From Candidatus Neomarinimicrobiota bacterium (GTDB taxonomy: Bacteria > Fidelibacterota > Fidelibacteria > Fidelibacterales > Fidelibacteraceae): DNA of 46,089 nucleotides. The notes under the pieces were generated by a model. That model was not told the DNA's origin and made no database searches. It was given only the letters and a program-made list of their open reading frames with translations. The position numbers were made by a program, and so were the translations under genes. Within the stretch, counting starts at the first letter, position 1. Each line of letters begins with the position of its first letter. Of this stretch, positions 21,493-33,107 are shown piece by piece. The stretch spans positions 1 to 46,089 of the forward strand of contig JAGGVO010000006.1 of assembly GCA_021157965.1 (NCBI GenBank). Direction: 5' to 3'.

Positions 21493-22815
21493 TCAATCCT
21501 TTTTATTGTTATCATCATCATGAGAATGTGGTGCCGCTTTCCGTAGTTTCATTTCCAGTGCCCTAGGATGAATAATGCTCCCGTTCACCGCTGCTGCGAA
21601 ATTGGTAAGGATACTGCCAAGATACACATGGTGCCCTTCCGTACGACAGGCCGATTGAAAAAGTTCCGGCGATGTAGTCATTACATGGACAACTTTTGTA
21701 AAGATACCCAGACCTTCTTTCAGTAACTTAAAAAAGGAAGAAGGATATATTTCACATCCCAAATCCAGGAAAATTCCTGCCAGTCCATTATTGATCAAAT
21801 CACTGTAGACCACAGTATCCGACGGCATAATCATCATCTGGACTGCGGAATTGACAGGGTTATAACGCGTCAGTTTCAGGCCGATCTGAAAATCCTCATA
21901 CCTTCCTGATCCGCCGGCACCTGCCATAATTTTGTGGACAGGTTCATTGGCCAGGGATTCCACCGGAAAAATTTGTATTTCCTCCCCTTCGACAGCCACG
22001 GCAATCATAGGGGTTACGGCTGTAAGGTTAATTTCATAATCTTTCTCATATTCCGCTTTTTCGTCCGGTTGATCAAAAAAGGCCTCTTTATCTGTTCTTT
22101 GGTTCAAATATTGCAAAACTTCAGTATCTGCTTCAAAAAGAATGTATTCATAACCGAAAGCAGAGAGGACATTAGCCAGATTGAAGCGTTCATGAAGGGG
22201 AAGTTCAGCCAATCCTTCACCGGAAAATTCCAGCACGCATTTATGGTTTTCAGGTAAATCATAATTTTTCAGGATATGCAAACCTATATCGATTCCCGTC
22301 ACCCAATTCCCCAACGTCCCGCCGAAACGGAACCGTGCACTGGGAGGAATCTGAATCCATAATTCACCGGTTGCCAGGGAGAGAGCCATTTCATGAACAG
22401 AAGCCAGGACAGGAAAACTGCCCATAACACCCAATTCAGCGAACTGGGGCTCTGCCGAAACGGTAAGCATACCGGGAACAATATGTCCCTGGTTTATCAC
22501 CACATTGGACGGACACCCGCTGCGACCCACTTCATAATAAGTCTTTATCCGGTGATGATGGACAAATTCCTGGAAATGAAAGGTATCACGGGATTGATGG
22601 ACCGACTCGACAGGTGAGGCATTATTAACTAAAATAACCTTTTCCGGGCAGAGTACGGCTTTCATACCGCTTTGGTAAAATTTCTGAATAATGCTGTTAA
22701 TACTGTCGTTAGAGGCAAGAAGCAATTCCGGCTGAATCCGAATCAAATCACCAGAATGCTGATCAGTATGTCCTGTTTTTCTCGATAATATTTTCTGAAT
22801 CAGTGTTTGCGGCAT
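21493..22815 (-). CDS. LeuC/aconitase-family pseudoenzyme lacking cluster and catalytic residues
   Basis: 440 residues, colinear with the large subunit of 3-isopropylmalate dehydratase: IQKILSRKTG at the start, EFVHHHRIKTYYEVGRSG, HIVPGMLTVSAEPQF, ATGELWIQIP, ending YLGSILTNFAAAVNGSIIHPR. Yet active-site motifs are replaced. Catalytic Asp-Ser-His-Thr is AEPQF (121-125). The GSCTNGR ligand motif reads AGAGGSGR (298-305). The CGPCxG ligand pair is YPSSFFKLL (357-365). No [4Fe-4S] cluster is expected. A His/Asp-rich tail (HSHDDDNN) ends the protein. AAGGAGG precedes ATG 22815. It lies three bases before rmlA. The reading frame is intact, so it is a retained protein, function unknown. Confidence 0.8.
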   Translation of the reverse strand: MPQTLIQKILSRKTGHTDQHSGDLIRIQPELLLASNDSINSIIQKFYQSGMKAVLCPEKVILVNNASPVESVHQSRDTFHFQEFVHHHRIKTYYEVGRSGCPSNVVINQGHIVPGMLTVSAEPQFAELGVMGSFPVLASVHEMALSLATGELWIQIPPSARFRFGGTLGNWVTGIDIGLHILKNYDLPENHKCVLEFSGEGLAELPLHERFNLANVLSAFGYEYILFEADTEVLQYLNQRTDKEAFFDQPDEKAEYEKDYEINLTAVTPMIAVAVEGEEIQIFPVESLANEPVHKIMAGAGGSGRYEDFQIGLKLTRYNPVNSAVQMMIMPSDTVVYSDLINNGLAGIFLDLGCEIYPSSFFKLLKEGLGIFTKVVHVMTTSPELFQSACRTEGHHVYLGSILTNFAAAVNGSIIHPRALEMKLRKAAPHSHDDDNNKKD

Positions 22816-22864
22816 GTATGAATCCTCCTTGGGTTTAAAGTACCGATATTTTAAATGTAAATCA

Positions 22865-22920: not shown

Positions 22921-23110
22921 CAGGGAAGAGCGAGAATGAATTTTATAAATTATTGCATTCATTAATGATAATGTTGAATGTTAAAAATGAGCTGCAAGGA
23001 TATGCAACAAGCTTTATTTGCGATGCTTGTTCATATTTTGATCCGGTCGGTATTTTCAGTTAAAATAAGTATCCCAAACAGGCACAACCCTTCCATTCAA
23101 TACTCTCCAC
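22885..23110. mobile_element. Possible MITE-like 226-bp element with 18-bp inverted ends
   Basis: The ends GTGGAGAGTATTGAGTGG (22885-22902) and CCATTCAATACTCTCCAC (23093-23110) are inverted copies with one mismatch in 18. The inner 190 bp encode nothing. I see no target-site duplication, and one end coincides with the heptad repeat, so the pair may reflect the repeat rather than a transposon. Confidence 0.3.
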
Positions 23111-23136
23111 GCAGCACTTATAGAATATATTTTTTC

Positions 23137-23165
23137 TTGGAAATCATTCAAGACTCGTGTACACT
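23137..23165 (+). promoter_or_regulatory. Candidate promoter of the carrier-protein-like gene
   Basis: TTGGAA (23137-23142), 17-bp spacer, TACACT (23160-23165). The predicted start would leave a short leader carrying the AAAAAGGAG ribosome-binding site. Confidence 0.35.
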
Positions 23166-23184
23166 CAACCAAAAAGGAGATCCT

Positions 23185-23511
23185 ATGAAAGTTTTGGAAT
23201 TTATACAGAACATGCTGAATGATATCTTTCCCGAAGGGGAATATAACGGATCCTCCACTTTTCAGGATCTGATTGATGGTGATATAGACGAACTGTCTTT
23301 GACACATTTTCTCTATGCCATTGAATTGGAATACAAAGTCAATCTTCCCGAAACACTGACAGACAATCCGGATATGGTTCTCAATGATTTCGCAAAGGAA
23401 GTAGAGAAACTGTCCCCGTCAGAAGATCCTATGTTCCGGTACAATCTGTTGAAGACGGTTTCTGATGAGATTGCCGCCTGTTATTTTGATGAAGATTTTA
23501 CAGAAGAATAA
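23185..23511 (+). CDS. Small acyl-carrier-protein-like acidic protein
   Basis: 108 residues, strongly acidic. Residues 1-75 follow the four-helix ACP pattern: helix 1 VLEFIQNMLNDIF, a loop, then DGDIDELSLTHFLYAIELEYKVNLPETLTDN, which parallels DSLDxVELxxxLEEEFxIxIPDE of carrier proteins, and a final helix MVLNDFAKEVEKL. The serine that would carry phosphopantetheine is present but the Asp before it is Leu, so modification is uncertain. A charged 30-residue tail follows. AAGGAG precedes ATG 23185; the open frame upstream to 22978 lacks a good start. It stands alone between a repeat region and a decayed gene. The assignment is fold-level only. Confidence 0.55.
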   Translation: MKVLEFIQNMLNDIFPEGEYNGSSTFQDLIDGDIDELSLTHFLYAIELEYKVNLPETLTDNPDMVLNDFAKEVEKLSPSEDPMFRYNLLKTVSDEIAACYFDEDFTEE

Positions 23512-23902: not shown

Positions 23903-25489
23903 TTATATTACAGTATCTTTAAGTAATTTTTCCTGTTTATGGGGAAAATCCGTCCTGTAATGGAGCCCGCGGCTTTCTTCCCTGCTTAAAGCAGACCGGG
24001 TGATGAGATAAGCTATTGTTGTTAAATTCCTTAATTCAAGCAATCCTTTTGAAACACGGGTCCGTTTATAATAATCTTCAATTTCATCATACAGTAAATT
24101 AATTCGTCGCATAGCCCGGATCAGATGATTTTTTGAACGAATAATCCCCACGTAATCCCACATAATGGTTTGAATTTCAATGCGATTATGTCGCAGCACT
24201 CCCCATTCCTCATCATTTTCCACACCTGAGTCGTCCCAATCAGGAATCGTCACCTTAAATTGGGGACCGGGTTTCTGCAATACCTTCGAGGCGGCACGAT
24301 GGCTGAAGACGACAGCTTCCAGCAGGCTGTTGGATGCCAGGCGGTTGGCTCCGTGAACACCGGTATGGGCGTTCTCACCGCTGGCCAGAAGATTGTGCAT
24401 CGAGGTTTGCCCGTTCAGATTGGTCATAATACCGCCACAAACATAGTGTGCCGCCGGAACAACAGGAATCATGTCACGTGTTATGTCCAGATCCAGATAT
24501 TTTTTGCAGTGCCGGTAGATATTGGGAAATCTGTTTTTCACGTCGCTCGCCGGGAGCCCGGTCATATCCAGAAAAACATATTTGTCCCCGTTTATTTTCA
24601 TCTCACTGTCAATTGCCCGGGCCACAATATCCCGTGGAGCCAGCTCTTTTGCTTCATCATAACGGGACATGAACCGTTCACCCCGGCCGTTTCTCAGGAT
24701 GCCTCCAAAGCCTCGCAAGGCCTCAGAGATAAGAAACGGCTCGTGTTCCGGATCATACAGTGCCGTAGGATGAAACTGGATAAATTCCATATTGGCGATT
24801 TTTGTGCCTGCCCGGTACGCCATGGCAATGCCATCACCCGTGGCAATTTCGGGATTCGTCGTATGAAGATAGACTCTTGACGCTCCCCCTCCTGCCAGCA
24901 GTGTATAATCCGCCCTGAAAGCTTCCACTTCACAGGAAACATTATTTAAGGCATATACACCAAAGCACACATTGAATGCATACTGAAGATTATCCAATAC
25001 CTGATGTTCGGTAATCAGGTCAATGGCCGTGTAGTTCTCAAAAATCCGGACATTGGGGTGGTTGATTGCTTTATCCAGAAGGGTTTTTTCGATTTCGTCC
25101 CCCGTCATATCTGATGCATGAAGAATACGTTTTACCCGGTGTCCGCCCTCCCGGGCCAGATCCAGGTTTTTTGTGTCATCCCGTGAGAATTTCACCCCCC
25201 ATGAGATCAGATCCTTAATCCTGTCGGGACCTTCACTCACCAGAATCCGCACAGCATCTTCATGACACAAATCGGCACCTGCTTTTAAGGTATCTCTGAA
25301 ATGGTATTCAAACTGATCATCATCTGATGTTACGGCAGCGATGCCACCCTGGGCATAGCGGGTATTACTTTCTCCCGCCGTTTTTTTTGTTAAAATGGCC
25401 ACGGTTCCGTGGTCTGCAACTTTCAAAGCAAAGGTCAGTCCGGCAATGCCACTGCCGATAACAAGATAATCTGTTTTAATGCGCTTCAA
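23903..25489 (-). CDS. nadB: L-aspartate oxidase
   Basis: 528 residues, FAD enzyme that oxidises L-aspartate to iminoaspartate for NAD synthesis; in anaerobes fumarate can accept the electrons. N-terminal YLVIGSGIAGLTFALKVA is the FAD loop. SNTRYAQGGIAAV, HVKRILHASDMTG-like HRVKRILHASDMTGDE, MEFIQFHPTALYDPE and LLASGENAHTGVHGANRLASNSLLEAVVFSHRAA are family signatures that separate it from succinate dehydrogenase. Length is normal. It overlaps the polA stop by 14 bp. nadA and nadC are not in the window. Confidence 0.95.
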   Translation of the reverse strand: MKRIKTDYLVIGSGIAGLTFALKVADHGTVAILTKKTAGESNTRYAQGGIAAVTSDDDQFEYHFRDTLKAGADLCHEDAVRILVSEGPDRIKDLISWGVKFSRDDTKNLDLAREGGHRVKRILHASDMTGDEIEKTLLDKAINHPNVRIFENYTAIDLITEHQVLDNLQYAFNVCFGVYALNNVSCEVEAFRADYTLLAGGGASRVYLHTTNPEIATGDGIAMAYRAGTKIANMEFIQFHPTALYDPEHEPFLISEALRGFGGILRNGRGERFMSRYDEAKELAPRDIVARAIDSEMKINGDKYVFLDMTGLPASDVKNRFPNIYRHCKKYLDLDITRDMIPVVPAAHYVCGGIMTNLNGQTSMHNLLASGENAHTGVHGANRLASNSLLEAVVFSHRAASKVLQKPGPQFKVTIPDWDDSGVENDEEWGVLRHNRIEIQTIMWDYVGIIRSKNHLIRAMRRINLLYDEIEDYYKRTRVSKGLLELRNLTTIAYLITRSALSREESRGLHYRTDFPHKQEKLLKDTVI

Positions 25490-28187
25490 ACCAACTACCT
25501 CCTATACCGATATCCACTTTCAGAGGGACATCCAATTGCATTGCCGATTCCATATCTCTTTTCACCAGTTCACGGAGTACATCCCCTTCATCAGGCGCAG
25601 TTTCAAAAACCAATTCATCATGAACCTGTAAAATCATTCTGGATTTTAACTTTTCTTTCTGCATATCGTTATCAACCCGAATCATTGCCAGTTTGATCAG
25701 GTCTGCAGCCGTTCCCTGGACAGGCATATTAATAGCCATTCTTTCGGCGGCTTCCCGAAGATTCCGGTTTTCACTTCGGATATCCGGCACCTGCCGGTAC
25801 CGCCCCATAAGGGTGCGGACCAATCCCGTTTCCGCCGCCTCTTTCTTGATATTTTCCACATATTTTTCAACACCGGGATAAGTATCAAAATAGGCTTTTA
25901 TAAGGGCCGCCGCATCCTGACGGCTCATACTCAGTTCATTGGACATCCGAAAAGGGCCTGCTCCGTACATGATGCCGAAATTTACAACTTTTGCCTTTCG
26001 TCGCATATCATCCGTCACATCTTTTTCCGAAACACCAAAAACCAGGGCAGCCGTGCGGGCATGGACATCGGCATCCTCCAGAAAAGCCTGAATCAATTTT
26101 TCATCACCCGATAAATGGGCCATGATCCGTAATTCCACCTGACTATAATCCGCTGATAGAATCTTCCATCCTTTTTCCTGAGCGACAAAAGCTTTTCGAA
26201 TCCGCCGTCCCAGAGATGTTCGAATGGGGATATTCTGAAAATTCGGGTCCGTACTGCTCAGACGACCCGTCGCCGCTACCGTCTGGTTAAATGAGGTGTG
26301 TACCCGGCCGGTCCTCGGATTGACCTGCTTCGGCAATGTTTCAATATAGGTGGACTGTAATTTGCTGAGTGTCCGGTATTCCAAAAGATAATTCGCAATA
26401 GGATACTCTTTTTTCAGGATTTCCAATACCGTAACATCTGTTGAATATCCGGTTTTTGTCTTCTTTACAACAGGATATTTCAACTTTTCAAAAAGAATGT
26501 ATCCCAGCTGTTTGGGAGAGTTCAGGTTGAAACGTTCTCCGGCCAGATCGTATATTTTATCTGTTATTTTTGAGAGTTCGGCATGAACCTCTCCCTGCAT
26601 GGTTTTTAAAAAATCCACATCCAAATATACCCCGTTATCTTCCATGCGGGTCAGGACAGGGAGCAGGGGAATTTCAATGTTATGATAGATTTTATCCAGT
26701 TTTTCCTTATGAATTTTTTCCTTCAGGATCCCGTACAGTTTCCAGGTAATATCGGCATCCTCGGCGGCATAAAATCCCGCTTTATCAAGGGGAACTTTGT
26801 CCATCGTAATTTGTTTGGATTTTCTGTCGCCAATGAGTTCTTCTATAGGTTGCATCTGGTAATTCAGATACCGCTGTGATAAATAATCCAGCTTATACGA
26901 ATTCATATCGGGATTCAGAAGATATTCGGCAATCATGGTATCAAAGAGGGGTCCTTTCCCTTCCACGCCATATTTTTTCAGGACCAGCAAATCATATTTT
27001 AAATTATGACCGACTTTAAGAATTTTTTCATTTTCCAGAATAGGTTTCAATTGGCTGAGGACATATTCCACATCATCCGGGGCGTTAAAAAGTTCTTTTT
27101 CCTTATTCAGAAACTTTAAAGGAATGTACACCGCCTGTCCTGTTTTATAACTCAGGGAAACACCTACCAGATTTGCCCGATTGGCATCGATATGATCAGT
27201 TTCCGTATCGAAAGCAAAAGCTTTTTCACCGGATAATTTTTTAAAAAAATCATCCAGGGATGTCCGGTTATCCAGAATCCGGTAGCTTTGTTCCACATGC
27301 TCATGAGATTCACCCAGTTGCAATTCGTTGATCAGGGCATAAAACTCAAGTTTTTCAAGTGTTTTTCGCAGGGCGTTTTCATTGAAACCGGTAAACTGAA
27401 AAGTACTGAGATTCAATTCCGCCGGAACATCCGTTTTGATGGTCACCAGTTCACGGCTTAACAGACCTAATTCCCTGTTTTCTTTAATCCCTTTCCGGAT
27501 TCGGGCATTGCTTTCTTCCTGTCCATTTTCCAGAACATCATCAAAGGAACCATACTTTTTAATAAGCTTCACGGCTGTTTTTTCACCAATTCCGGGAATA
27601 CCCGGAACGTTATCCGACGAATCCCCCATCAAGGCAAGAAGATCAACAATCCGCTCTGGTCCAACACCCCACTTTTTTTTCACTTCATCCCTGGTATAAA
27701 CCACCAAATCCTTTTTTCCCACGGCCGGCGAATAGAGAAAAATATGGTCATTCACCAGCTGCATAAAATCCTTGTCCCCTGATACCATATAAACATCCAG
27801 TCCCTTTTCCTGTGCTTTCACGGCAAGTGTACCAATGACATCATCGGCTTCAAAACCGGATTTCACTAAGACGGGGATATTCATTGCTTCCAGAATGTCC
27901 TGGATCCAGGAAATCTGGGGACGCATTTCAAAGGGCATTTTTTCCCGGGTAGCCTTGTATTCAGGATATTTTTTATGTCTGAATGTCTTTTCCTTGGCAT
28001 CGAAAACAACTGCCAGAAAATCAGGATTTTCATCCCTGATGAGTTTAAGGACCGACTTTGTAAAACCATAAGCCGCACTGACATGTCTTCCATCGCTGGT
28101 CAGCAGGGGATTCCGAATAAAAGCAAAATGCGCTCTGTATGCCAACGCCATTCCATCAATCAGGAAAAGACGTTTTTTCTCTGTCAT
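25476..28187 (-). CDS. polA: DNA polymerase I
   Basis: 903 residues, all three activities. 5' nuclease: LIDGMALAYRAHFAF, GFEADDVIGTLA, VSGDKDFMQLV and the helix-3-turn-helix GIPGIGEKTAVKLI. Proofreading 3'-5' exonuclease: AFDTETDHID, HNLKYDLL and YAAEDADITW keep the four acidic residues. Polymerase: ADYSQVELRIMAHLSGD (motif A), RRKAKVVNFGIMYG (motif B, Phe at the ddNTP-selecting position) and LQVHDELVFE (motif C). It works in repair and Okazaki-fragment processing. AGGAG precedes the ATG. It lies 25 bp after the dehydrogenase-like gene and overlaps nadB. Confidence 0.97.
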   Translation of the reverse strand: MTEKKRLFLIDGMALAYRAHFAFIRNPLLTSDGRHVSAAYGFTKSVLKLIRDENPDFLAVVFDAKEKTFRHKKYPEYKATREKMPFEMRPQISWIQDILEAMNIPVLVKSGFEADDVIGTLAVKAQEKGLDVYMVSGDKDFMQLVNDHIFLYSPAVGKKDLVVYTRDEVKKKWGVGPERIVDLLALMGDSSDNVPGIPGIGEKTAVKLIKKYGSFDDVLENGQEESNARIRKGIKENRELGLLSRELVTIKTDVPAELNLSTFQFTGFNENALRKTLEKLEFYALINELQLGESHEHVEQSYRILDNRTSLDDFFKKLSGEKAFAFDTETDHIDANRANLVGVSLSYKTGQAVYIPLKFLNKEKELFNAPDDVEYVLSQLKPILENEKILKVGHNLKYDLLVLKKYGVEGKGPLFDTMIAEYLLNPDMNSYKLDYLSQRYLNYQMQPIEELIGDRKSKQITMDKVPLDKAGFYAAEDADITWKLYGILKEKIHKEKLDKIYHNIEIPLLPVLTRMEDNGVYLDVDFLKTMQGEVHAELSKITDKIYDLAGERFNLNSPKQLGYILFEKLKYPVVKKTKTGYSTDVTVLEILKKEYPIANYLLEYRTLSKLQSTYIETLPKQVNPRTGRVHTSFNQTVAATGRLSSTDPNFQNIPIRTSLGRRIRKAFVAQEKGWKILSADYSQVELRIMAHLSGDEKLIQAFLEDADVHARTAALVFGVSEKDVTDDMRRKAKVVNFGIMYGAGPFRMSNELSMSRQDAAALIKAYFDTYPGVEKYVENIKKEAAETGLVRTLMGRYRQVPDIRSENRNLREAAERMAINMPVQGTAADLIKLAMIRVDNDMQKEKLKSRMILQVHDELVFETAPDEGDVLRELVKRDMESAMQLDVPLKVDIGIGGSWFEAH

Positions 28188-28212: not shown

Positions 28213-29268
28213 TTAGGTCCCGACGCTCTCGGACAATTCACGATCCACAAAAGATGCGTATAATCCCGATACAGCCGATTTGCTCATGGTACCATCCATT
28301 TCAGGTGTCAGCCATCCTTTATCCATGGCCTCGTAAATACCCCTGCGCAGTACCCGTGCCGGAATAACCATATCCAGCAGATCATACAACATGGCCAGGG
28401 CATGATACACATTCAACGGGGATCTATAATTCAGAACACCTTTATAAAATTCAGTTATATTTTCGACATAAAATTTATTCTCATCTGTCATCAAGGCATA
28501 ACAGGAAAAGAAACCTTTATTCAAAAGCATATTCAGGGAATAGAATAGCATGTCACCCAATGGATCCGGGGCAAAGATCCACCGGAATTTTTTGGGTGTT
28601 TCAGTAAAGGATTTCCAGAATTCCTGAACAGTGAGAATCAGTGATGGCATCTGGGATTCAGTCGTCAATGCATCGAAAAGTATAGCCCATTTTTTAAATA
28701 TACTGCTTTTAATGGCCACGGGTAGCACCATTACAACATCCTCGGCATGTTTTTTTTCTGCCAGTTCGAGAAAGCATGAAAGAACTTTCGCCATATAGGA
28801 TACGGGATAGAAACTCTGATCGGAAATCACTTCAAAATCCCTGCCGGCATAATGGGTATCCCGGCTTAAGCTAACGGAACGCAGGCGCGTTTCACGGCAC
28901 AGGTAAAGGCGGACATCAGGAACCTGAATACCTTTCAGGGATGATGTGTTTTCATGATACATGATCACTGGACGTATCGCCAAATCATAATTCATGGTGT
29001 GAAAAAGTCTGACACGAATCCGGCCGCTGTTTTTAACACTCTTGTCATTCATCTGGTCAGCAAATACAGCTTTATATGTGCGGACTGTTTTTTGAAAAAA
29101 TTCATCGGTCAGAAGTGATGTTGTAGTATCAATGAGCTTTTTCTGATCTGAATAAAAATCAACCGTAACTTTTGATTTAAAATAGGCATTGACAATATCT
29201 GTCAAAGAGAGGATATCCTCTTTGAAAGCTGTATGATTTCCCTGGTAGGAAAATGAGGCAACGTTCAT
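28213..29268 (-). CDS. Isopropylmalate/isocitrate dehydrogenase-family pseudoenzyme
   Basis: 351 residues, the normal LeuB length, matching the beta-decarboxylating dehydrogenases end to end. LIDTTTSLLTDEFFQKTVRTYKAVFA (46-70) parallels the IDATGTPLP-to-ADAVLLG strand. LAIRPV (96-101) parallels the ANLRPV strand. RWIFAPDPLGDML (229-241) parallels VTPNLFGDIL. NVYHALAMLYDLL to MDKGWLTPEMDG matches the C-terminal helix pair. Catalytic residues are gone: RENTEG reads RETRLR (125-130), the Lys of VHKAN is Pro/Val (VLPVAI), the DAM metal Asp is absent, the second Asp of GDxxSD is Tyr, and the HGSAPDIAG cofactor loop is lost. It probably neither oxidises nor binds NAD. It lies in an operon with GWxTD and propeller genes. 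Confidence 0.75.
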   Translation of the reverse strand: MNVASFSYQGNHTAFKEDILSLTDIVNAYFKSKVTVDFYSDQKKLIDTTTSLLTDEFFQKTVRTYKAVFADQMNDKSVKNSGRIRVRLFHTMNYDLAIRPVIMYHENTSSLKGIQVPDVRLYLCRETRLRSVSLSRDTHYAGRDFEVISDQSFYPVSYMAKVLSCFLELAEKKHAEDVVMVLPVAIKSSIFKKWAILFDALTTESQMPSLILTVQEFWKSFTETPKKFRWIFAPDPLGDMLFYSLNMLLNKGFFSCYALMTDENKFYVENITEFYKGVLNYRSPLNVYHALAMLYDLLDMVIPARVLRRGIYEAMDKGWLTPEMDGTMSKSAVSGLYASFVDRELSESVGT

Positions 29269-29276
29269 AGAACCAC

Positions 29277-30497
29277 TTAATAAGTTACATCAAACACGGG
29301 GTCCGTAAGCTGGTAATCCCCAAACCCGGTATAATCCATAAAGACAAATTGTCTGTTCAAGTTATGATAATACCAGATGATATACGGTTTTGTTGAAAGA
29401 TCAAAGGTGTGCTGTTCCACATCATCAGGTTCACCAAAAATCGTGTATATCATGCCGCGGTCACTTTCCCACCCATCCAGGAATCCGGAAAATTGTTGAT
29501 TGGATAACTCGATTCTGTGAAAATATTCATTCATCAGCTCATTATTCCGGGTATTGGGGGATGGATCATTCCGTTTCCAAAAGTTCAGAAAAAGCTCTTT
29601 CTGCTCACCTCCGGTTGCATTCAACATTTTCTGGTATTCGTCGGCCTGAATAAAATTGGTCATGCGTAAATAGCGCATCTGCCGTATGGCCAGGTCAAGA
29701 TCATGGATCAGGGTGGACATATCCTTCCAGCGTATCTGGAACCGGGTGGAACGCTTGATTTCTTCATCATCAATCATGGTTGACAATTCAAGGGTATACT
29801 CTTTGTATCCCAGCTCATCAATTGAAACGGGAAAGGCATAATCCCGGGGATTTTTTTTCAGGTTTACAAAAAAATATCCTTCACGGATTTGTTTTCCGTT
29901 GTCAAAAATCCGGAAAGTAAATTTTTCTTTTTCTTCTTTGCCGGCAGCCGAAAAAATAAAACGGATATACCTTACCGGCGGATTTTTAGTACTATCCACG
30001 TGAATGGGTTCATCTGCCGGGAACACCTCACCCAGTGACCATGCCATATCTTTTAAAAGGGATAATTCGGCCGTAAACTCCTTTCTGCCTTTCCGCTGTG
30101 TATAGATATCTGCCACATAGACTACAACCTTCATATCCTCTGTTTCCAAATCATAGGTTTTTTCCAATTCCGTATACTGATTGGATGCAATGGATTCCTC
30201 GTAAGAATCCGTGGTAATGGTTTCAAACCAGGTGTCACCGCCAATTTTCCTGCCATTGTGCAGAATAGAGATAGTCACATCCAGGCGTGCTTCAAAAACT
30301 TCGCCGCTTTTTTTAAAGAGAATGGATTTATTGGGGATCTTGATCGTCATTTCAAGCTGTCCGTATCCTGCTTTATCCGAAGGTCTTATCCTGTGGTTCA
30401 CCTGAAAACGTATGGGATCTTCATCACGTTTCGGAGCAGGTAACAGCGTGGCTCCTGCAAAGACAATCAATAACAATATTTTACTTGTATATTTCAT
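29277..30497 (-). CDS. GWxTD-domain exported protein
   Basis: 406 residues, N-terminal signal peptide (ILLLIVFAGATLLPA). The first two thirds are beta-rich, resembling tandem Ig-like modules. The C-terminal 110 residues are the GWxTD domain: FWKRNDPSPNTRNNELMNEYF, then FSGFLDGWESDRGMIYTIFGEPDDVE (motif here GWESD) and the YIIWYYHNLNRQFVFMD strand. The family is common in FCB and Acidobacteria genomes; its role is unknown. It overlaps the propeller gene by 17 bp and precedes the dehydrogenase-like gene by 8 bp. Confidence 0.85.
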   Translation of the reverse strand: MKYTSKILLLIVFAGATLLPAPKRDEDPIRFQVNHRIRPSDKAGYGQLEMTIKIPNKSILFKKSGEVFEARLDVTISILHNGRKIGGDTWFETITTDSYEESIASNQYTELEKTYDLETEDMKVVVYVADIYTQRKGRKEFTAELSLLKDMAWSLGEVFPADEPIHVDSTKNPPVRYIRFIFSAAGKEEKEKFTFRIFDNGKQIREGYFFVNLKKNPRDYAFPVSIDELGYKEYTLELSTMIDDEEIKRSTRFQIRWKDMSTLIHDLDLAIRQMRYLRMTNFIQADEYQKMLNATGGEQKELFLNFWKRNDPSPNTRNNELMNEYFHRIELSNQQFSGFLDGWESDRGMIYTIFGEPDDVEQHTFDLSTKPYIIWYYHNLNRQFVFMDYTGFGDYQLTDPVFDVTY

Positions 30498-32055
30498 AGC
30501 GTGTCAACCCCCGGTCTGTCCCAATATATAAGATATTGCCAGATATTTCCAGCGTTTGAATATTATTGCTGCAAAGGCCTTCCTCGCGTGTGACATGTTC
30601 AGTTTGTTCTGTTTTCAGGTTGTACGAGTAGAGGCCCCGGTTCGTTCCAACCCATACATACGACGTATCACAGGCAATATCCCTAATCCGTATTCCCCTT
30701 CTCAGGCCTGCGACAGGCAATGTTTGGACAGATTCCAGCCGGGGGTCGCCCTTCATAATAAACACATCATCACTCCAAAAAACATATTCACCGTTTTCCG
30801 TTAAATGAGCTACTCCATAGCGGATATTGATAAAATTTTTCTTGAAATCCAGATGATTAGAATCACTTACTTCAAATACCATAATACCGGAATATGATCC
30901 AAGATATAAGTGGTTATTTATCTGTAATCCGGTCTGTATTTTAAAGGGAATATCCTGAATCGGGCGGATATAAAGCTCTTTCAAATCAACCTCAAAGACA
31001 CCGGTCTCGGCAATAATCCAGCCGGTATGTCCCTGTTGAACCACTTCGTGAACAGTATTGATAAGTCCCACACCGGGTGTGATGGTTTGAAAATTATCCT
31101 CACCGGGACCGGAGACAATAATTGAGTGGTCTGTAATCACCAGCAGGGTATCGCGATACTTCATAAATCCCCGGACGGACTGATTGCCCAATACAGCGAC
31201 CTCATCATCATCAATCCACTTAAACTCCTGGAATGCTTTGCAAGTCTCGGTCCATCCGTTCCGGTCATCCAATCCGTTATAATCAATACCATGACCGATA
31301 TAAATCTGATCCCCACTGACAAGGCACTGGGTTACATTGTCGTTCAACAGTCCATAGGGCTGATGTTCAACAATTCTCACAGTCCTGCCGCCTGTGTAAA
31401 GACCGTTTCCCAGCGTTCCCATCCATAGATTTTGGGAATTTCCGTAAACAGAAAATGCAATGGGATATTTTACGAAGGCGCTTCCCACAACTGAACCGTC
31501 TGTATCAATAAAATATTCCCCTGTAAACTGGACTTGATACAAATCCATTTCAATACCCGAGACAGACCAGTTAATTTTTAAGTCCGGTTCTTTGATAGTA
31601 TTGATCAAGGCCCCTGTGTAGGGGTCCAATTCTACAATTCCATCGTATGTATCTGCAAAAAGTCTGTCCCCTGCACTTCCGATGCGTTTGCAATATCCAT
31701 CAAAATCGACTTTCTCCCACTGAAAGGCTGCATCCCCAAACAGGACATACAAATCCCGGTTAACAGCCGCCCAAAGATAACCTGTAGCCCGGTGATAATA
31801 TATGGTCCTGATATCGGTATCTGGAAGCCCCATTGGCCGGTTCATGGGTTTTTCCCACTGATGGAAAAGATGAGAATAAACGATAACGCCGTTATTAGAG
31901 GCAAAATAGGTTCTATCATCAGACTGTGACATAGAATATAAATATCGGAAGGAGTGATAATTGGTCATTTTTTCCGAATAATGGGGGCTTACAGCATAGA
32001 GTGGGGTGATAAGCTTCCACAGCAGGAGAAGTGTCAGGATACGTATGGGTTTCAT
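30481..32055 (-). CDS. Exported beta-propeller protein (two-component-regulator propeller type)
   Basis: 524 residues. A signal peptide (ILTLLLLWKLITPLYA) is followed by seven or more propeller blades of the Reg_prop kind: MGLPDTDIRTIYYHRATGYLWAAVN, LWMGTLGNGLYTGG, YVWVGTNRGLYSYNL, LCSNNIQTLEISGNILYIGTDRGLTRYE. In hybrid sensors this propeller senses outside ligands, but here there is no TM, kinase or DNA-binding part, so it is a free periplasmic or surface propeller. GAGG precedes ATG 32055. It is first in the chain propeller - GWxTD - dehydrogenase-like - polA - nadB. Confidence 0.8.
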   Translation of the reverse strand: MKPIRILTLLLLWKLITPLYAVSPHYSEKMTNYHSFRYLYSMSQSDDRTYFASNNGVIVYSHLFHQWEKPMNRPMGLPDTDIRTIYYHRATGYLWAAVNRDLYVLFGDAAFQWEKVDFDGYCKRIGSAGDRLFADTYDGIVELDPYTGALINTIKEPDLKINWSVSGIEMDLYQVQFTGEYFIDTDGSVVGSAFVKYPIAFSVYGNSQNLWMGTLGNGLYTGGRTVRIVEHQPYGLLNDNVTQCLVSGDQIYIGHGIDYNGLDDRNGWTETCKAFQEFKWIDDDEVAVLGNQSVRGFMKYRDTLLVITDHSIIVSGPGEDNFQTITPGVGLINTVHEVVQQGHTGWIIAETGVFEVDLKELYIRPIQDIPFKIQTGLQINNHLYLGSYSGIMVFEVSDSNHLDFKKNFINIRYGVAHLTENGEYVFWSDDVFIMKGDPRLESVQTLPVAGLRRGIRIRDIACDTSYVWVGTNRGLYSYNLKTEQTEHVTREEGLCSNNIQTLEISGNILYIGTDRGLTRYEIYK

Positions 32056-32096
32056 CAAAGCCTCTTCAGAAAAGGGAAGGGAACATTTTTTATGGA

Positions 32097-33107
32097 TTAA
32101 AGGAAATTATGACTCATCTCTTTCAGAGCTTCAAGGGTGATGGGAATAATGCCAACCTCTTCACACACTCTACCGGCGGCAAGGTTTGCCATCACCGTGC
32201 TGACCCTGAGAGAATACCCGGCAGCGGAAAAGAGGGCCACCGTGGAAATTACAGTATCTCCGGCGCCGGTTACATCATGAATTTTCCTGGCCCGGGTTGG
32301 GATTTTCAAACAGGTATCAGATGCTTCCAGAAGGACCATCCCGTCTTCACCCAGTGTGATGAGAATATTCTGTGCTTTCAATATCTTTCGGATTTCCCGC
32401 GCTGCCAGACAGGCATCATCCGGTGAATTAATTTTGAGATGGAGCAGATCTTCCGCTTCTTTCCGGTTTGGTTTAAATAAAAACACCTGATTGTAAAGCC
32501 GGTAGTTCTCAAATTTGGGGTCAACAAAAACCGGAACGTTGTGTTTTTCACATATAGGCAGCACATTTTTGATCAAATCCGGGGATAACACGCCTTTGTT
32601 ATAATCCTGAAGAATCACGGCATTCAGAGAATCTGCCTGGTCCTGAAACCTGCGGGTCAAATCATGGCATATATCCTCATGAATCCATTTTTTTTCTTCA
32701 TGATCCATCCGCAGTAACTGCTGCCCATCACTCAGTATACGTGTCTTGGTGGTTGTAGGCCGGTCATATACGGATACCAATCCGTCTGTATTGACATCAT
32801 CTTCACCAAACAAACCCTTTAATTCTTCTCCCTGGTTATCCTCTCCCATGATACCAAAAATAGAACAGGATGCGCCCAGGGACCGGATATTCCGGCATAC
32901 ATTTGCAGCGCCACCGGGTTTAACAACTGATGAGCGGATATCAACAACAGGAACCGGGGCTTCAGGAGAAATCCGTGATACTTTTCCTTCGTGATAGACA
33001 TCCAGCATAACATCACCAATTACACCGATACGGAGATTCCTGAAACGTTTTCCGGCTTCTTTAAAATCCACGTGTCTGATCAGATCAATCAACGAGACAT
33101 TCTCCAT
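32097..33107 (-). CDS. hldA: D-glycero-beta-D-manno-heptose-7-phosphate kinase
   Basis: 336 residues, PfkB/ribokinase fold. It phosphorylates heptose 7-phosphate at C1 for ADP-heptose and LPS core synthesis. Seen: IGVIGDVMLDVYHEGKVSRISPEAPVPV, KPGGAANVCRNIRSLGA, the NKGVLSPDLI stretch and the catalytic DVTGAGDTVISTVAL with the Asp base. It is the kinase alone, without the adenylyltransferase half of HldE, so a separate HldC-type enzyme is expected elsewhere. It overlaps gpmI by 23 bp. Its presence argues for an LPS-bearing outer membrane. Confidence 0.9.
   Translation of the reverse strand: MENVSLIDLIRHVDFKEAGKRFRNLRIGVIGDVMLDVYHEGKVSRISPEAPVPVVDIRSSVVKPGGAANVCRNIRSLGASCSIFGIMGEDNQGEELKGLFGEDDVNTDGLVSVYDRPTTTKTRILSDGQQLLRMDHEEKKWIHEDICHDLTRRFQDQADSLNAVILQDYNKGVLSPDLIKNVLPICEKHNVPVFVDPKFENYRLYNQVFLFKPNRKEAEDLLHLKINSPDDACLAAREIRKILKAQNILITLGEDGMVLLEASDTCLKIPTRARKIHDVTGAGDTVISTVALFSAAGYSLRVSTVMANLAAGRVCEEVGIIPITLEALKEMSHNFL

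Follow-up and report, generated by a model that had tools for sequence, protein, structure and literature searches.

The gene cluster upstream of polA

The window, i.e., the whole stretch of 46,089 nucleotides analyzed here, derives from a member of the phylum Marinimicrobia, now Fidelibacterota, which has a cultivated relative in Fidelibacter multiformis (PMC11652737). Its minus strand carries an open reading frame (ATG at 29268, stop at 28213) coding for a degenerate relative of isopropylmalate dehydrogenase, termed pseudo-LeuB below, which starts 8 bp after the end of a GWxTD gene and stops 25 bp before polA. The first-pass annotation had correctly positioned the gene between these two neighbors and had expected simple similarity searches to leave its product hypothetical; both Pfam and NCBIfam gave it no name. 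The features of the cluster are as follows:

32097..33107, minus strand: PfkB-family kinase (PF00294, 6.5e-39)
30481..32058, minus strand: PorZ-like beta-propeller protein, 525 aa (PF21544, 5.1e-6; NF052228, 1.9e-9, far under its cut-off)
29277..30497, minus strand: GWxTD-domain protein, 406 aa (PF20094, 2.6e-18; TIGR04514, 3e-30)
28213..29268, minus strand: pseudo-LeuB, degenerate LeuB/Iso_dh-fold protein, 351 aa (homology, profile, fold search, purifying selection)
25476..28187, minus strand: polA, downstream of pseudo-LeuB (PF00476, 1.4e-164)
21493..22827, minus strand: LeuC/aconitase-family protein without the Fe-S cysteines, termed pseudo-LeuC (PF00330, 9e-24; motif loss, dN/dS, tree)

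Synteny analysis displayed conservation of the pfkB-PorZ-GWxTD-Iso_dh run, with pfkB first, across several families, while polA adjoined pseudo-LeuB in no genus other than g1 across the loci read. No PF00180 match for pseudo-LeuB was found in Pfam at E≤1, a PF00180 search of its own genome at E≤10 returned two other proteins without it, and no NCBIfam model detected it; hits to RFC_C (0.05) and capsid (0.15) were weak and were taken as chance. Each of the five other genomes searched within the genus had an orthologue (61-91% identity, with 91% in G004), as had a sister genus (26-27%), which, together with dN/dS values of 0.09-0.19, indicated that the reading frame is not a chance one.

A separate, complete LeuB (TIGR00169, 510 bits) is encoded beside leuC and leuD on another contig of the same genome, such that pseudo-LeuB should not be needed for leucine. 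That displacement by a second LeuB freed the old copy is not put forward as a general rule: it fitted G000, G009, G028, and G045, but G096, G117, G142, and G229 showed no LeuB of this type at an equal score, and G025 has both.

Pseudo-LeuC lies 5 kb from pseudo-LeuB; replacements affect the GDSHT motif and each of its three Fe-S cysteine positions (GSCTNGR to GAGGSGR; TCGACLG to DLGCEIYP). Purifying selection acts on this gene as well (dN/dS about 0.07). In the tree, one clade united its relatives from two genera of family f1 and from the neighboring family f2, and no spare small subunit was found in its own genome. A common origin with the LeuC of family f3 was considered and received no support from the tree. 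The exact patterns of the Fe-S and GDSH motifs were likewise not found in three further LeuC-type proteins on long branches (L195 in G025, L208 in G053, and L212 in G045), which could be either diverged enzymes or additional dead copies. A small open reading frame without a Pfam match (22978-23508, plus strand) was also observed between nadB and pseudo-LeuC on the opposite strand; within the genus, its downstream portion (from MKVLEFIQNML) shows conservation, and by eye it resembles an acyl carrier.

Iso_dh descent and the catalytic residues

Pseudo-LeuB is a member of the Iso_dh superfamily by descent and has the two-domain Iso_dh fold. Profile-profile comparison (hhalign) with an alignment of true and intact Iso_dh proteins covered its whole length (348 columns, probability 99.9, E=3.5e-34). 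A profile built solely from members of the window's genus and of its sister genus, containing no bona fide Iso_dh, was searched against the PDB with hmmsearch and matched tartrate dehydrogenase 3flk best (2.3e-16, residues 2-335) in addition to many LeuB structures. The AlphaFold model was moderate to weak (pLDDT 60, pTM 0.54), with pLDDT <50 over residues 95-153, so that the newly conserved segment described below cannot be placed in three dimensions. Foldseek with this model gave a best match at E=1.1e-13 (probability 1.00, TM about 0.70), and all 50 PDB matches listed were isopropylmalate, isocitrate, tartrate, or related beta-decarboxylating dehydrogenases. The isopropylmalate dehydrogenase fold assigned in the first-pass annotation thus held in the profile search, which could have returned a different fold or no Iso_dh match, and in the structure search, where the matches listed comprised only entries of the isopropylmalate, isocitrate, and tartrate dehydrogenase types.

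LeuB and an intact orthologue served as alignment references for pseudo-LeuB, with residues given in Thermus LeuB numbering. The catalytic Lys185 and Tyr139 were both missing (Pro183 and Val132 in pseudo-LeuB) and Asn187 was replaced by Ala185. One of the three metal-binding Asp residues was kept (Asp241 as Asp239; Asp217 and Asp245 being Gln215 and Tyr243), as were two of the three substrate Arg residues (Arg104 as Arg99 and Arg132 as Arg125; Arg94 being Phe89), with a Gln at the Arg104 equivalent in the G002 orthologue. The NAD loop HGSAPDIAG...NP was replaced and three residues shorter, retaining only its final Pro, and the N-terminal GDGIG motif, on which the earlier annotation had been silent, was lost (SYQGNH). 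The losses that this annotation did list, namely the catalytic Lys, two of three Mg-binding Asp, the HGSAPDIAG cofactor loop, and the context of the RENTEG arginine, were all recovered, with the refinement that the context now reads RETRLRSV and the RENTEG Arg itself survives. Judged from these replacements, none of the sites for substrate, metal, and NAD is intact in the window's genus and the protein is probably without enzyme activity, while the Arg104, Arg132, and Asp241 equivalents may still confer some anion or metal binding.

Constraint within the genus and the orthologue series

Within the genus, pseudo-LeuB evolved at dN/dS 0.088-0.19 (about 0.09 between near genomes), compared to 0.05-0.08 for polA and 0.08-0.20 for pfkB, with conserved length and no frameshift or internal stop in any genus member. 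The branch leading to the genus was very long (2.3 changes per site), and a very long branch followed by constraint is the usual picture of changed function. Of the 351 positions, 157 were invariant among the six genus members, and these were concentrated in three segments:

28828..28968, minus strand: residues 101-147, newly conserved and Arg-rich, aligning with the RENTEG loop and arm of LeuB
28519..28602, minus strand: residues 223-250, aligning with the Mg/dimer helix (NMFGDILSD) of LeuB, of which only Asp239 is left
28285..28428, minus strand: residues 281-328, the most conserved C-terminal segment

The segments held 88 of 123 residues invariant in genus g1 versus 69 of 228 elsewhere, their boundaries having been chosen after the data were seen, compared to 59 of 123 versus 117 of 228 at the same positions in eight true LeuB paralogues, which lacked such a bias. 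Shuffling tests free of this selection supported clustering strongly by variance (0 of 5000) and modestly by the best 30-residue window (p=0.02). The conserved patterns were VIMYH...LKG.QVPDVRLY.CRE.R.R.VSL.RDT.Y..RDFEV for residues 101-147, with invariant Arg around residues 118-147 (R120, R125, R128, R130, R136, and R143), ETP..fRWIFAPDPLGD.L..SLN.LLN for residues 223-250, and YRSPL..Y..LAM.YDL.DM.IPAR.LRRGI.EA..KGWLTPE..GTM for residues 281-328. Going by general knowledge of the fold and by the alignment, the three segments would correspond in LeuB to the arm and the loop with the substrate Arg residues, to the Mg/dimer helix, and to the C-terminal portion of its first domain, respectively. 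Conservation mapping, proposed earlier as a route to a new binding site, therefore located redistributed constraint in three segments and identified no ligand.

An Iso_dh-like gene was identified downstream of GWxTD in nine families (f1, f3, f8, f9, f10, f12, f14, f19, and f25, the f12 loci coming from one genus), and in most of these loci a PorZ-like propeller gene adjoins GWxTD; a contig end precedes GWxTD in G232 and a dapA-like gene intervenes in two f3 genomes. Among 36 operon-linked orthologues, five keep the main catalytic set and 31 lack part or all of it. The set is kept in f3 and f8 (with Asp245 to Glu in f8) and partly or wholly lost in the other seven families, with different residues lost by family and the gene of the window as the most extreme member of this phylum-wide lineage. 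In the tree, one branch (support 96/95) separated the 36 linked proteins from 27 LeuB/IDH paralogues, with f3 nearest to the paralogues; at least two changes of catalytic state were needed on this tree, for which the program flagged long-branch doubts. The f3 orthologues scored 404.7 and 409.9 against the NF002898 3-isopropylmalate dehydrogenase cut-off of 393, for which reason the gene probably started out as a LeuB, with catalysis as the likely ancestral state. A search of the f3 genomes for a TIGR00169-type LeuB gave none at that level of score.

GWxTD without an adjoining pseudo-LeuB was identified in f6, f13, f21, part of f12 and f14, and the second genus of the window's family. Any role of pseudo-LeuB for GWxTD is accordingly dispensable, since several lineages dropped the gene and kept GWxTD. 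An apparent GWxTD-Iso_dh fusion in G062 (L071, G062:C62) was rejected as an artefact spanning a scaffolding run of N between contig pieces.

Two further arrangements were observed among the loci. In genus g2, a sister genus from which pseudo-LeuB is absent, the gene after GWxTD encodes a chorismate mutase domain protein of 86 aa (PF01817; L139:5348-5605, also L137 and L140), and next comes a protein of ~650 aa without a confident family. Family f3 includes a tandem Iso_dh pair (L143, G020:C11:47507-49470, and L144, G026), one member with RENTEGLY/HGSAPDIAG motifs and one without, which is a possible bacterial catalytic/regulatory NAD-IDH pair.

Candidate roles and comparison with known systems

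The interpretation we favor, with confidence somewhat better than even, is that pseudo-LeuB is a LeuB-derived pseudoenzyme, most likely cytosolic and non-catalytic, in which the old cleft or dimer face binds another ligand or partner. The ancestral copy would have been a catalytic LeuB at the end of the PorZ-like-GWxTD operon, as apparently still in f3, and the catalytic residues of the operon-linked LeuB would have decayed in most lineages. In the window's genus, the two-domain fold would have been retained under strong purifying selection despite the broken sites, with a different ligand or a partner protein binding where the cleft or dimer face used to be (residues 101-147, 223-250, and 281-328). 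The role of pseudo-LeuB might then be that of a sensor or a scaffold and no longer that of a dehydrogenase, by analogy with the non-catalytic IDH3 subunits. A cytosolic location is probable from an N-terminus that by eye does not resemble a signal peptide, and the conserved operon hints at a possible tie to the envelope genes beside it. Direct contact with the mature GWxTD protein is not obvious because only GWxTD begins like a secreted protein, its N-terminus being signal-peptide-like by eye. A bolder proposal, to which we give little credence, is that LeuB and LeuC both became pseudoenzymes in one Fidelibacterota cluster and now serve, each alone or the two jointly, as regulators or scaffolds without catalysis that are tied to cell-envelope assembly.

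An enzyme with new chemistry, independent of the LeuB metal and NAD machinery and using an active site newly formed in the old cleft, is unlikely. The strongest constraint does fall in segments aligned with the old cleft, and several of the invariant positions carry charged or aromatic residues that the intact orthologue does not have; however, no new catalytic signature was common to the degenerate families, the invariants of the wide alignment being mostly structural (G9, E125, E145, W193, P224, P283, and G325), and the loss of different residues by different families resembles a release more than the rise of a single new chemistry.

Similarly improbable is a non-catalytic regulatory subunit of the cell's own LeuB or IDH, resembling the beta and gamma subunits of mitochondrial NAD-IDH. 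Non-catalytic subunits are known in the superfamily from IDH3 beta/gamma (PMC7752914; PMC5282582) and yeast IDH1 (PMC8333347), the Iso_dh dimer joins two subunits, and the genome encodes LeuB and IDH-like proteins as candidate partners. Nevertheless, the gene occurs in G007 (92% complete) without any other PF00180 protein, a catalytic Iso_dh was never adjacent in the loci read, and the orthologues of seven families decayed differently.

Retained or regained beta-decarboxylating dehydrogenase activity of the ordinary kind, with unusual residues, is very unlikely: the Arg104, Arg132, and Asp241 equivalents remain, but the catalytic Lys, two Mg-binding Asp, Tyr, the GDG motif, and the NAD loop are replaced, the last with a deletion. 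A decaying pseudogene that is open by chance has almost no standing, as the loss of nearly all family motifs and the absence of the gene from some relatives are outweighed by dN/dS values like those of polA and pfkB, which exclude neutral evolution unless they are an alignment artefact, and by intact frames of conserved length in the genus.

The LeuB-derived pseudoenzyme interpretation names a protein that annotation pipelines would leave hypothetical and offers a new lead on the GWxTD proteins. Literature searches, with subscription journals mostly outside their reach, returned nothing relevant on isopropylmalate dehydrogenase pseudoenzymes, no paper on GWxTD proteins, and no bacterial operon-conserved LeuB-derived pseudoenzyme lineage with intermediates.

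Several known systems were compared. The gene two upstream of pseudo-LeuB weakly matches the propeller of PorZ from type IX secretion, although it scores 36.5 against a cut-off of 260, and no evidence in this analysis connected pseudo-LeuB with secretion. A homologue of SprA, the T9SS translocon, was observed elsewhere in the same genome, outside the window (G000:C41:114627-120410, 785 bits in all). Tartrate dehydrogenase/decarboxylase of Pseudomonas putida (3flk), the best PDB profile match and among the top fold matches, differs in that its entry title includes NADH, oxalate, and a metal ion, the corresponding residues being absent from pseudo-LeuB. The IDH3 beta/gamma subunits and yeast IDH1 share the superfamily and place a regulatory role on a dehydrogenase fold (PMC7752914; PMC8333347) but are complexed with a catalytic partner, whereas pseudo-LeuB has no adjacent partner gene and, in G007, no other Iso_dh in the genome. 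A further comparison is with LeuB of the NF002898/PRK03437 branch, to which pseudo-LeuB is homologous over its whole length and in fold and whose cut-off is passed by the f3 operon-linked orthologues, while Lys185, Tyr139, Asn187, Asp217, Asp245, Arg94, the GDG motif, and the NAD loop are missing from pseudo-LeuB. Pseudoenzymes are usually found singly with their intermediates lost; here, a single operon position spans intact LeuB-like proteins (f3 and f8), partly stripped ones (f9, f10, and f12), and a form unrecognized by family models (f1), a graded series in which the transition from enzyme to non-enzyme can be tested one stage at a time.
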